DNA of 47,519 nt, taken from the NCBI GenBank assembly GCA_902775595.1, contig CACYNF010000007.1, forward strand, positions 1 through 47,519, written 5' to 3'. Origin of the DNA: an uncultured bacterium (GTDB lineage: Bacteria > Verrucomicrobiota > Kiritimatiellia > RFP12 > UBA1067). The notes below the pieces were generated by a model that saw only the letters and a list, made by a program, of their open reading frames with translations, ran no database searches and was not told the DNA's origin. Numbering within the stretch: the first letter of the stretch is position 1; every line of letters starts with the position of its first letter. The position numbers were made by a program, and so were the translations under genes. Below, piece after piece: positions 11,648-15,157 of this stretch.

Positions 11648-12306
11648 AGATAGAGATCCTTCCGTCGCTTCTTGCGGCAGACCTCGGACGCCTCGCCGAA
11701 GAGACGAGGCGCGCCGAGGCGTCTGGCGCAGACGCCTTGCACATCGACATCATGGATCCGCACTTCGTGCCCAACATGAGCTTCGGTCCGTCGATCGTCG
11801 ACTTCTGCAGGAAGACCTGCCCCGCGTTCTACCGCAACGTCCATCTCATGATGTCGCGCCCCGACCTCTACATCGAGAAGTTCGCCGCCGCCGGCGCGCA
11901 GACGCTCCAGATACACGTCGAGGCGGACTGCGATCTCCACGTCGAGCTTAAGCGCATCAGGGCGCTTGGCGTGAAGAGCGCGATCGTGCTGAACCCCGAG
12001 ACCGACGTCGAGATGCTGACGCCCTATCTTGGCGAGATCGACGAGGCGCTCGTGATGACGGTGCATCCCGGCTATGGCGGGCAGAAGTTCATCGCCGAGT
12101 GCCTTCCGAAGGTCACGTGGCTTAGGGGGCGCCGTCCAAGTCTCGACATCATGATCGACGGCGGCGGAAACGCCGAGACGATTCCGCTCGCGGCGAAGGC
12201 GGGCGCAAACCAGTTCGTCGCCGGCTCCTACCTCTTCGGCAAAACCGACATGCGCGCGGCGGTTGCCGACTTGAGAAAAGGTATCCAATCCGCTCTCCAA
12301 CTCTGA
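11644..12306 (+). CDS. rpe: Ribulose-phosphate 3-epimerase
   Basis: The enzyme interconverts ribulose 5-phosphate and xylulose 5-phosphate in the pentose phosphate pathway. The 220-residue TIM barrel has all family signatures: ILPSLLAADLGRLAEE, HIDIMDPHFVPNMSFGP with metal and catalytic residues, HLMMSRPD, MTVHPGYGGQKF and IDGGGN. The start is a TTG that overlaps the stop of the upstream kinase (TTGA), the only start that gives the family N terminus. The 3' end is unusual: the last codons and stop lie inside a 22-base repeat (12295-12316) that recurs just before coaC, so the C-terminal LQL is repeat-encoded. Confidence 0.95.
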   Translation: MKIEILPSLLAADLGRLAEETRRAEASGADALHIDIMDPHFVPNMSFGPSIVDFCRKTCPAFYRNVHLMMSRPDLYIEKFAAAGAQTLQIHVEADCDLHVELKRIRALGVKSAIVLNPETDVEMLTPYLGEIDEALVMTVHPGYGGQKFIAECLPKVTWLRGRRPSLDIMIDGGGNAETIPLAAKAGANQFVAGSYLFGKTDMRAAVADLRKGIQSALQL

Positions 12307-12316
12307 ACTCCAACTC
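12293..12316 (+). repeat. CTCCAACTCTGAACTCCAACTC repeat, copy 1
   Basis: A 22-base unit at 12295-12316 is repeated exactly at 12392-12413. This copy carries the rpe stop codon. A 15-base part recurs inside the fkp-like gene at 13481-13495. Confidence 0.8.
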
Positions 12317-12321
12317 AAACT

Positions 12322-12352
12322 CCTGCCTCTGCGTCTCTGCGCCTCTGCGTTA
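12322..12352 (-). repeat. Dispersed repeat of the AACGCAGAGGCGCAGAGACGCAGAG type
   Basis: On the minus strand a run of A/T precedes AACGCAGAGGCGCAGAGACG. I recall near-identical elements as dispersed repeats in many unrelated bacterial genomes. It lies between the two 22-base repeats in the rpe-coaC gap. Confidence 0.6.
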
Positions 12353-12391
12353 AAAAAAACTTCATAAAAGATCTCCCCCACCACTCTCCAA

Positions 12392-12413
12392 CTCCAACTC
12401 TGAACTCCAACTC
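12392..12413 (+). repeat. CTCCAACTCTGAACTCCAACTC repeat, copy 2
   Basis: An exact 22-base copy of 12295-12316, ending three bases before the coaC start codon. It occupies the place where a Shine-Dalgarno site would be expected, and none is seen. Confidence 0.8.
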
Positions 12414-12416
12414 TTA

Positions 12417-12947
12417 ATGAAACATCGAATTCTTCTCTGCGTCACCGGCTCGATCGCGGCCTACAAGGCGGCGGAGCTCGTGCGGCTTTTCGTCAAGAAC
12501 GGCGACGAAGTGCGCGTCGTCATGACTCCCGCGGCTTGCGAGTTCGTCTCGCCGCTCACCTTCCAGACGCTTTCCAGGAACCCCGTCTACGTCGAGGAAT
12601 TCAAGCGTCCGGCGGAGTGGCGTCCCGAGCACATATCGCTCGCCGACTGCGATCTCGCCGTTGTCGCCCCCGCGACTGCGAACACAATCGCCAAGCTGCG
12701 TTACGGCCTTGCCGACAACCTGCTCACATCGACACTGCTCGCGACGCGCGCGCCAATCGCAATCGCGCCGGCGATGAACGACGGCATGTGGGAAAACGCC
12801 GTCACGCGCGAGAACATCGACGCGCTCGAGAAGCGGGGCGTCAGGATTGTCGCGCCCGGATACGGCGAGCTCGCGTGCGGGACGAGCGGTCTCGGCCGCA
12901 TGGCCGAGCCGGACGAAATCTTCAAGGCCGTGGAGTCGATTTCGTGA
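12417..12947 (+). CDS. coaC: Phosphopantothenoylcysteine decarboxylase (CoaC only)
   Basis: This FMN-dependent enzyme decarboxylates 4'-phosphopantothenoylcysteine to 4'-phosphopantetheine on the way to coenzyme A. The 176-residue protein has LLCVTGSIAAYKAAEL for flavin binding, APATANTIAKLRYGLADNLLT, the substrate motif PAMNDGMW (family PxMNxxMW) and the catalytic cysteine in ELACGTSGLGRM. In most bacteria the protein is a CoaBC fusion of about 400 residues; here only the CoaC half exists and the next gene is not CoaB. The ligase must be encoded elsewhere or be a different form. The stop overlaps the start of the fkp-like gene. Confidence 0.93.
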   Translation: MKHRILLCVTGSIAAYKAAELVRLFVKNGDEVRVVMTPAACEFVSPLTFQTLSRNPVYVEEFKRPAEWRPEHISLADCDLAVVAPATANTIAKLRYGLADNLLTSTLLATRAPIAIAPAMNDGMWENAVTRENIDALEKRGVRIVAPGYGELACGTSGLGRMAEPDEIFKAVESIS

Positions 12948-15157
12948 AGTTCGACGTCCTTGTAGTAACTGCGTCAAATGAAGCCCAGGCGCGTGGATAC
13001 CGCGCCATGGTCGCGCCGCTCGTGGGCGCGCTTGCAGAAAAAATCCTCGTCGTTCCCGATCCTGGAGGCAAGCGCGTTGGTTCGCTCGGCAGCACAGTCG
13101 GCGTCCTGAAGAAGCTTGGAGACGTCTCGAAGAGCCGAGTGCTCGTCTGCCATTCCGGCGGCGACTCGAAGCGACTCCCCGCGTATGCCGCGATCGGCAA
13201 GGCGTTTGTCCCTGTGCCCGATAGCCGCGGCAGGACCGTTTCCCTCTTCGAGCGCATTGTCGCGAACATGGAACGGCTGAAGCTCCCGAAGGGCGGGGTC
13301 CTTGTAGTCTGCGGCGATGTCGCGCCCGAGTTTGATTTTGGTTCGTGCGATTTCTCGAAGGGCGGCGTCACGGGGGTTGCGTACTACGACTCGCCGGAAG
13401 AGGGTTCGCGCCACGGCGTCTATGTTCCTGAGAAGTTGGAGTCCAAAGTCGGAGTTGGAGAAAGGAACAATTCCACTCTCGAACTCCAACTCAAAACTCG
13501 AACTTCACATATTGGTAGGGACGCCTGTCCCCAGGCGTCCACGGACGGTTTGGAAAACCGTCCCTACCAAGTAAAAGCGTTTCTCCAGAAGCCGTCGCCT
13601 TCCGCCGCAAAATCGGCGGGCGCGGTGCGCCGCGGGAAGGTCGCCGTCGATACGGGAATTCTCTGGATCGACCCCGCGACAGCGAAGAAGATCGTCGCCG
13701 CCGGATGGAAGGTCGGCGACATCTACGACGAATTCGCGCACGAGCTTCTCGGCGGTTTCGCGCCTTTCCACGTGAATGTCGTTCCGCGCTGCTCGTTCTT
13801 CCACATCGGTTCGACGCGCGAGCTTCTTGCGCGGCTCGGGAAGGGGCGCGAGTGGGTCGAGGGCTGCGCGATCCCGCGCGGCGAAATGAAGCTCGGCGGA
13901 AGAAACGTCGTCACGTTCGTGCCGAGGGAGCTTGGCCCAATCGATCTTGCCGAGGGCGAGTGCCTTACGTGCCTTCCCGTCGGAGGGAAGTGGCTTCCGA
14001 TCCGCTATCGCGTGGAGGACGATTTCAAGTCCGACGGAAAGTGGGAGAAACTAAAGCTCGGGGAGATCATGAAGAGGGTCGACCACAAGAAGCTTCTTGC
14101 GCTTCGCAAAGCGGAGGACTGCATCACTGTGGAACTTCCGCTTCGCATCGACTTCGCGGGCGGCTGGAGCGACACTCCGCCGATATGCTACAAGATGGGC
14201 GGCGCGGTTTTCAATGCTGCCGTAACGCTGAACGGCGTGAAGCCGGTCAAGGTGCGCGTCCGGCGTCTCGCCGAGAGGGAGGTGCGCGTCGAAAGCGTCG
14301 ACCTCGGGAAGTCCGGCGTTCTAAAGTCGCTTGCCGAAATCCGCGCGCCGAAAGATCCGCACGACTGGTGCGCTCTCGTAAAGAGCGCGCTCACGGTGAC
14401 GAAGTTCGACTTCTCGCATGGCGGGCTCGACATCAAGATTTCCGCCGACGTCCCGAAGGGCAGCGGCATGGGCACGAGCTCGATTCTCGGCGCGGCGCTC
14501 GTCACTGCGCTTGAGCGCGTCGCGGGCCGCAGGCCGGAATGGAAGCGCGTCGCGTCGCTCACCCTCGCGCTTGAAAAGGAGATGGCGACCGGCGGCGGCT
14601 GGCAGGACCAGATCGGCGGCCTCGTTCCCGGCGCGCACCTTGTCGTGACAAAGCCCGGCAAAAGCCAGGATCCGCGCATGTCGCGCGTCTCGCCGCGCGC
14701 CGAGAAGGCGTTCTCGAAGTTTCTCGGGGACCGCGCGCTTCTATACTTCACCGGCCGCAAGCGCATGGCCCGGAACGTCCTCCGCGGCGTCCTCGCGTTC
14801 TTCGCGGAGAATCCCGACGACATCGCGTGTTCGATCGTGCGCCGGCTGAAGAGCGACGCGGAGCGCGCGTTCAAGGCCGTCGAGTCGTGCGACTGGGATT
14901 CGTTCTGCTCGGCTGTCAACGACTACTGGCTTTCCAAGAAGGCGCTCGACCCCGGAAGCACAAATCCGCTCGTCGAGCTGATCATCGCGCGAATGGCGCC
15001 GTGGATTTCCGCCGTGAGCCTGTGCGGCGCAGGCGGCGGCGGCTTCATGTTCGTCGTCGCGCGTTCGAAGGACGCGAAGGCGAAGATCAAGTCGGTTCTC
15101 GAGAAGCATCCGCCGATCAAGTCGGGGCGCTTCTTCGACTTCGAGATAGCCGAGTAG
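12944..15157 (+). CDS. fkp: Bifunctional fucokinase / fucose-1-phosphate guanylyltransferase-like (Fkp)
   Basis: Fkp enzymes turn L-fucose and GTP into GDP-fucose for surface glycans. The 737-residue protein has an N-terminal nucleotidyltransferase half, with CHSGGDSKRLPAYAAIGKAFVPVP near residue 70 and ASRHGVY-type and FLQKPS motifs. A left-handed helix region follows, then a C-terminal GHMP kinase (LPLRIDFAGGWSDTPPIC near residue 400, DVPKGSGMGTSSILGAAL near 500, and LCGAGGGGFMF). It is shorter than the roughly 950-residue Bacteroides enzyme. Residues about 163-209 are encoded by two palindromic repeats (13432-13506 and 13512-13570) kept in frame between SRHGVYVPEKL and VKAFLQKPS, where relatives have a short loop. 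The GTG start overlaps the coaC stop. The sugar could be another 6-deoxy or heptose sugar. Confidence 0.82.
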   Translation: MKFDVLVVTASNEAQARGYRAMVAPLVGALAEKILVVPDPGGKRVGSLGSTVGVLKKLGDVSKSRVLVCHSGGDSKRLPAYAAIGKAFVPVPDSRGRTVSLFERIVANMERLKLPKGGVLVVCGDVAPEFDFGSCDFSKGGVTGVAYYDSPEEGSRHGVYVPEKLESKVGVGERNNSTLELQLKTRTSHIGRDACPQASTDGLENRPYQVKAFLQKPSPSAAKSAGAVRRGKVAVDTGILWIDPATAKKIVAAGWKVGDIYDEFAHELLGGFAPFHVNVVPRCSFFHIGSTRELLARLGKGREWVEGCAIPRGEMKLGGRNVVTFVPRELGPIDLAEGECLTCLPVGGKWLPIRYRVEDDFKSDGKWEKLKLGEIMKRVDHKKLLALRKAEDCITVELPLRIDFAGGWSDTPPICYKMGGAVFNAAVTLNGVKPVKVRVRRLAEREVRVESVDLGKSGVLKSLAEIRAPKDPHDWCALVKSALTVTKFDFSHGGLDIKISADVPKGSGMGTSSILGAALVTALERVAGRRPEWKRVASLTLALEKEMATGGGWQDQIGGLVPGAHLVVTKPGKSQDPRMSRVSPRAEKAFSKFLGDRALLYFTGRKRMARNVLRGVLAFFAENPDDIACSIVRRLKSDAERAFKAVESCDWDSFCSAVNDYWLSKKALDPGSTNPLVELIIARMAPWISAVSLCGAGGGGFMFVVARSKDAKAKIKSVLEKHPPIKSGRFFDFEIAE
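13432..13506. repeat. Palindromic element A inside the fkp-like gene
   Basis: GAAGTT at 13432-13437 pairs with AACTTC at 13501-13506. Inside, GAGTTGGAG at 13452-13460 pairs with CTCCAACTC at 13484-13492. The right part shares GAACTCCAACTCAAA with the rpe-coaC intergenic repeats. The reading frame passes through uninterrupted. Confidence 0.75.
13512..13570. repeat. Palindromic element B inside the fkp-like gene (cloverleaf-like)
   Basis: A perfect 12-base outer stem, TTGGTAGGGACG at 13512-13523 with CGTCCCTACCAA at 13559-13570, encloses two hairpins: GGACGCCTG/CAGGCGTCC (13519-13527 with 13532-13540) and GGACGGTTT/AAACCGTCC (13543-13551 with 13555-13563). The whole 59 bases are translated as part of the host protein. 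Confidence 0.85.

Follow-up and report, generated by a model that had tools for sequence, protein, structure and literature searches.

Palindromic DNA that is translated within proteins has been described before. The Rickettsia palindromic elements (RPEs; Ogata et al.) form several palindrome families that lie in frame inside unrelated conserved genes, where enzyme function is tolerated, as in the case of gmk (PMC10969869, PMC2229807). The GTAG REPs are GTAG-tagged hairpins that also occur as head-to-head dimers, and RAYT genes are flanked by GTAG repeats (Di Nocera et al. 2013, PMC3733652). The same study places GTAG REPs in frame in Opitutus terrae genes, uvrA genes included, and gives Rickettsia RPE-4 and RPE-6 as CGTC-tagged. 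PARCELs, also translated palindromic DNA, consist of tandem arrays of 25-residue amphipathic repeats, many of them in membrane-targeted proteins (PMC2996958). Translated palindromes and intragenic REPs in several phyla are thus known already, and the locus described below adds a further host group: PMC3733652 makes no mention of Kiritimatiellae, and no report of translated palindromes in that group was found in the open-licence literature searched. What is new here is the host group, the range of core enzymes affected, the turnover among unrelated families at the same loops and a rule that links orientation to hydropathy.

The stretch of DNA analysed here (the window, 47,519 nucleotides) corresponds to contig 7 of a genome (G000) of 3.15 Mb and 86% completeness, a rumen Kiritimatiellae MAG. 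Its nearest named relatives are all rumen Kiritimatiellae MAGs as well: RUG673 (G035), RUG10640 (G030), RUG12612 (G051), RUG14632 (G046) and RUG14463 (G002). The window carries an fkp-like gene (Pfam matches PF07959, E 2e-27, PF00288 and PF08544; top Foldseek match FKP 9iit, E 7e-55) that contains two palindromes, termed A and B. We consider it highly probable that these are two unrelated mobile palindromes sitting in frame in a tolerant loop of Fkp, where they would be translated as a near-neutral addition. The relevant features are the following.

12944 to 15157, plus strand: fkp-like gene, bifunctional L-fucokinase/GDP-fucose pyrophosphorylase; 2214-base open frame with a GTG start at 12944 and a TAG stop ending at 15157.
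13432 to 13506, plus strand: element A, 75-base imperfect palindrome, conceptually translated as KLESKVGVGERNNSTLELQLKTRT; fold z -4.8; absent from the G035 ortholog.
13512 to 13570, plus strand: element B, 59-base palindrome built of two GTAG-tagged hairpins head to head, conceptually translated as IGRDACPQASTDGLENRPYQ; fold z -8.6; GTAG REP anatomy as in PMC3733652.
13515 to 13540, plus strand: first REP unit of B, GTAG tag (13515-13518) and hairpin GGACGCCTGTCCCCAGGCGTCC; layout shared with RAYT-flanking repeats.
13543 to 13567, minus strand: second REP unit of B, inverted relative to the first, with hairpin GGACGGTTTGGAAAACCGTCC and CTAC at 13564-13567 (GTAG on the minus strand).
12381 to 12412, plus strand: fragment (one arm) of A in the rpe-coaC gap, 87.5% identical over 32 bases to A positions 42-73.
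12326 to 12355, plus strand: fragment of an F-family repeat (CGCAGAGACGCAGAG type) in the same gap, found by self-BLAST of 448 kb of the genome.

An initial annotation of this DNA had seen A and B side by side within a continuous 2214-base frame, had stated that SRHGVYVPEKL and VKAFLQKPS, which the repeats separate, are nearly adjacent in relatives, and had noticed part of A again in the rpe-coaC gap; all three observations are borne out. The frame is open throughout 12944-15157, and the insert is a 139-base segment, A then B, between SRHGVYVP and V(K/R)AFLQKPS, flanks that are close together in the other orthologs. The empty site that the annotation proposed to look for exists in G035, whose Fkp is 99% identical on both sides while a short linker (DNA GTGCCCGAGAATGGCCGTAGGCTGTCGGCGGTGCGCGCG) replaces the insert. 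The segment is also missing from G046, G002 and G008, as well as from distant orthologs in Planctomycetes and other phyla. Fkp measures 736 residues with the insert and 697 in the empty relative, a net gain of 39 residues rather than 47, the difference reflecting the replacement of a few original loop residues.

Two other relatives, G030 and G051, share the insert at 88-90% DNA identity. The G030 copy is entire, and that of G051 has lost 51 bases of A in frame, while a further deletion next to the insert removes the invariant LQKP motif. Every genome concerned is a fragmented MAG, so that an assembler might be suspected of having stitched repeats into genes. Such misassembly is scarcely credible, however, given that the insert recurs at the same junctions in the separate assemblies RUG10640 and RUG12612 despite this divergence, that orthologous insertions with identical junctions recur across G000, G035 and G030, and that the inserts keep frame. 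Between G000 and G030 the insert differs at 4 of 139 bases (97.1% identity) compared with 88.4% identity for the whole gene, and so the tract may have been recently shared; a few flanking bases are common to these two genomes and absent from G035. To judge from these alignments, G035 may have lost the insert, or the tract may have recombined between lineages. No target-site duplication is evident by eye in the empty and filled sites compared, where the replaced flanking bases limit resolution. As a side observation, in the RUG12612 gene (L168) the LQKP motif is gone directly downstream of B, and the pyrophosphorylase half may be inactive.

In orthologs, the loop at this position varies naturally and reaches up to about 20 residues, as would be expected of a native low-complexity loop that evolves fast and turned palindromic through chance or slippage. 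The probability of such an origin is close to nil, since both sequences, of 59 and 75 bases, turn up again throughout the genus in unrelated genes and in intergenic gaps, and B does so across the order. The annotation's claim that the segments are mobile repeats rather than protein-derived sequence is upheld by the same recurrence.

Element B has the anatomy of a GTAG REP. Its 12-base outer stem is perfect (TTGGTAGGGACG/CGTCCCTACCAA) and encloses two inner hairpins within 59 bases, just as first annotated, and none of 200 shuffled sequences folds as stably when modelled as single-stranded DNA (z -8.6). The two short stem-loops form a head-to-head dimer, with terminal GTAG tags that lie outside the stem and are conserved in most B copies. 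The family is dispersed and multi-copy, occurring in 10 of the order's 33 genera (17 of 162 genomes) and, within the genus, in 4 of 58 genomes. On these sequence features B appears to be a GTAG REP head-to-head dimer with the structural marks of a RAYT-mobilised repeat.

A candidate mobilising enzyme is encoded in the same genome. This RAYT relative of 166 amino acids (L335:1477-1977, where L335 is G000:C5:46593-49898) has the HUH motif MPDHFHLIL and matches the RAYT profile with E 5.8e-20, its 72.8 bits falling below the NCBIfam curated cut-off of 80. About a dozen GTAG hairpins flank the gene on both sides, one of them 96% identical to half of B, the others mostly of a sister GTAG type rather than B itself. 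Similar RAYT loci with flanking GTAG repeats are found in G096 and G097. In two other genera, repeats of the GTAGGGACG type border the RAYT loci. Most likely, B was moved by the RAYT of its own genome, which would act as a single-strand tyrosine transposase.

Several further features of such loci were recorded. The GTAG REP units on both sides of the L335 gene are arrayed with a period of about 44 bases, giving a REPtron-like locus. RAYT-like proteins at L272, L275, L277, L285, L288 and L278 have two profile-matching stretches with about 50 residues between them. At L282:1963-3021 (G051:C21), the frame upstream of a Y1 transposase-like ORF crosses repeated SRRQDGGSPSQGGTNWERRRLAGDI units, probably another translated repeat array.

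Element A is a second hairpin class, distinct from B. It too is more stable as single-stranded DNA than all 200 shuffled sequences (z -4.8), and its family is multi-copy, with matches in 29 of 58 genomes of the genus. It carries neither a GTAG nor a CGTC tag; its termini are AGTTGGAG and either CTCCAACT or CTCGAACT. No RAYT gene was found beside A, and the RAYT/Y1_Tnp loci examined contain no full A copy, only one 21-base match. The rpe-coaC gap that holds an arm of A (window 12301-12420) is made up of assorted pieces of A-type and CGCAGAG-type repeats, and the rpe stop codon apparently lies inside an A-like arm (CTCTGAACTCCAACTC).

The known systems resemble A and B in different respects. Like B, the O. 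terrae GTAG REPs combine a GTAG hairpin, head-to-head dimers, in-frame copies in uvrA among other genes, and RAYT genes with GTAG repeats, and their host belongs to the same superphylum (PVC) as the genome studied here. Unlike them, homologous loops are here filled by unrelated families, and the non-GTAG class A behaves likewise. The RPEs of Rickettsia, which the initial annotation offered as a parallel, do match in mode of action: several palindrome families of similar size are translated in frame inside unrelated conserved genes. They do not match in membership, as their host is of a different phylum and the described tags set them apart (RPE-4 and RPE-6 end in CGTC, whereas B ends in GTAG), and in contrast to the RPE case RAYT relatives are encoded in the present genome and A is used in every one of its three frames. 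PARCELs are tandem 25-residue amphipathic arrays, whereas A and B are single dispersed inserts, mostly in cytosolic enzymes.

Whether the repeat-encoded residues loop out, a question raised with the first annotation, was examined with an AlphaFold2 model of the insert-bearing Fkp built on a 22-sequence alignment. Mean pLDDT is 84, and the sole stretch below 50 is residues 165-201, linking the strands at 157-161 and 207-214; the low values within the insert are partly forced, as one other aligned sequence carries it. The annotation had predicted a surface loop of about 47 repeat-encoded residues at 163-209. Its placement agrees with the disordered stretch between two core strands, and its size exceeds the net gain. 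According to the model, the mature enzyme would carry the insert as an unstructured extra loop of about 39-47 residues. The idea that A is a portable beta-hairpin fold, suggested by the resemblance of the KLESKVGVGERNNSTLELQLKTRT frame to a strand-turn-strand unit, was dropped, because three frames are used and the modelled insert has no strands.

Further copies, whose existence had been named as a check on the annotation, are present inside and outside genes and in frame in many unrelated enzymes. The window's genome yields 15 matches to A and 15 to B, some of which are weak, partial, or a single copy matched on both strands. We inspected 60 copy loci, scoring their flanks with a codon model trained on the window, and most copies are in frame with coding flanks on both sides. 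Hosts of in-frame copies recognised by Pfam include glutamate synthase GltB (three A sites), CTP synthase, CarA, UvrA, Era, RsmB, HrpB, a TlyA-like methyltransferase, threonine synthase, AroD-AroE (DHquinase-shikimate dehydrogenase), PBP2, GlcNAc epimerase, lactonase and alpha-L-fucosidase, and domains align on both sides of the inserts. One could suppose that fkp and these other hosts are decaying pseudogenes whose inserts mark loss of function, and the G051 fkp without LQKP beside its insert fits that picture. This is very improbable as a general account, because frames stay open for hundreds of codons, coding bias and domains continue on both sides, and hosts include core genes such as CTP synthase, for which most of the genus's genomes show just one strong match.

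The window's genome has 11 full-length copies of B, of which 10 by our count are in frame within genes, whereas the REPs of PMC3733652 are mostly intergenic. Coding density is 91%, genome-wide counts combine searches with 448 kb of sampled contigs, and we estimate a genic share of about 70% among survivors if insertions that break the frame or add a stop are lost and all others are tolerated. In this small sample, the genic share of B gives no sign that in-frame insertions are purged. Across a large sample taken from the genome's biggest contigs, long perfect palindromes within genes are few and not dramatically in excess, which indicates a load of tens of A and B copies per genome, not hundreds.

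These data are consistent with a simple course of events. Palindromes would insert widely across the genus; copies that cause a frameshift, introduce a stop codon or upset the fold would be lost, and in-frame insertions in tolerant surface loops would persist as near-neutral additions. In Fkp, A and B would have inserted next to each other and in frame, within the loop that joins two core strands.

The orientation of the copies is informative in this respect. On one strand, element A occurs in each of the three reading frames (14, 13 and 10 in-frame rows), and its single antisense in-frame row is a short frame without Pfam support. Among distinct Pfam-supported gene sites, 18 carry A in sense and none in antisense (by our count; chance about 1e-5). 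Stop codons lack the power to explain this bias, since open antisense frames are nearly as frequent as sense ones (84 versus 97 instances). Hydropathy separates the strands clearly: the stop-free frames of A have a mean GRAVY of -1.06 in sense and +0.02 in antisense (Mann-Whitney p 1e-29, a value that overstates independence because the copies are related). The bias fits selection for soluble loop peptides. B, which is hydrophilic on both strands (GRAVY -0.91 and -1.04), is used on both strands and is read solely in stop-free frames. Retention of A only on the strand that encodes hydrophilic peptides, and of B on both, thus offers a neutrality test for translated selfish DNA. A leading-strand or mRNA-structure cause was also considered and set aside: antisense RNA of A folds somewhat better on average (-36.3 versus -33.4 kcal/mol), so that RNA structure may contribute, but hydropathy distinguishes the strands far more clearly.

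On several occasions, one loop is occupied by different palindromes in different species. The Era loop holds A fragments in G000 and B in G035, with flanks about 98% identical. The UvrA loop holds B in G000 and G035, A in G055 and F in G051, and a second N-terminal loop of UvrA is occupied by A in two species and, in G000, by a repeat of the GGAGTCAGGAG type; GltB likewise has a loop filled by different palindromes in different species. CTP synthase loops were compared in about 30 species, with families C, E, F and K named by us from sequence inspection (F and K may be related). The empty form of loop 2, found in nine species, has 10 residues (AKLYGQAEIS-like), and filled forms carry F (CGCAGAG-type), K (CACAAAGA-type), C (ACAGGATT-type) or mosaics, which in G046 and G051 have a K-type left end, an F-type right end and another repeat, the third, lodged within. 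In loop 1 the occupant is A, C, F, K or, in G021, a further palindrome; in other species this loop is short. Together the two loops accommodate at least five palindrome families, or nothing.

Refilling of the same loops by different families across species, and the higher identity of the fkp insert than of the gene between G000 and G030 (in a tract that may be recently shared), could mean that the loops are beneficial exchangeable modules, with hairpin insertion diversifying protein surfaces, for example against phages or for regulation. We regard this as improbable. The hosts are unrelated cytosolic housekeeping enzymes without a functional theme, all three A frames are used, and relatives manage without inserts. 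Moreover, two of the four G000-G030 insert differences change an amino acid by our reading, and the G051 insert adjoins the LQKP-removing deletion, which suggests damage.

We favour near-neutral insertion into tolerant loops, and simple structural tolerance accounts for most of the data. A more speculative proposal, to which we give a minor chance, is that new elements target or replace existing hairpins, so that one insertion becomes a landing pad; the mosaics in CTP synthase loop 2 fit this reading, under which the lineage would possess a system of its own that continually swaps protein loops.

REPs were named as extragenic, yet here one REP family occurs in frame in core enzymes, together with four or more other hairpin families. 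Consequently, loops of CTP synthase, UvrA and glutamate synthase vary by tens of residues between closely related species of this large uncultured rumen genus. The inserts amount to a natural insertion-tolerance screen of essential proteins, and they advise caution, as loop-length differences in MAG proteins can reflect mobile DNA and not adaptation.

Two minor observations concern CTP synthase. Loop 1 in G024 (L373) contains an in-frame GTAGGGGCAGGACTCCGGCCTGCCC, a GTAG-tagged hairpin that differs in sequence from B. Matches with one internal TAA occur at G030:C11:18569-20323, G046:C28:13190-14701 and G035:C25:3898-4386.
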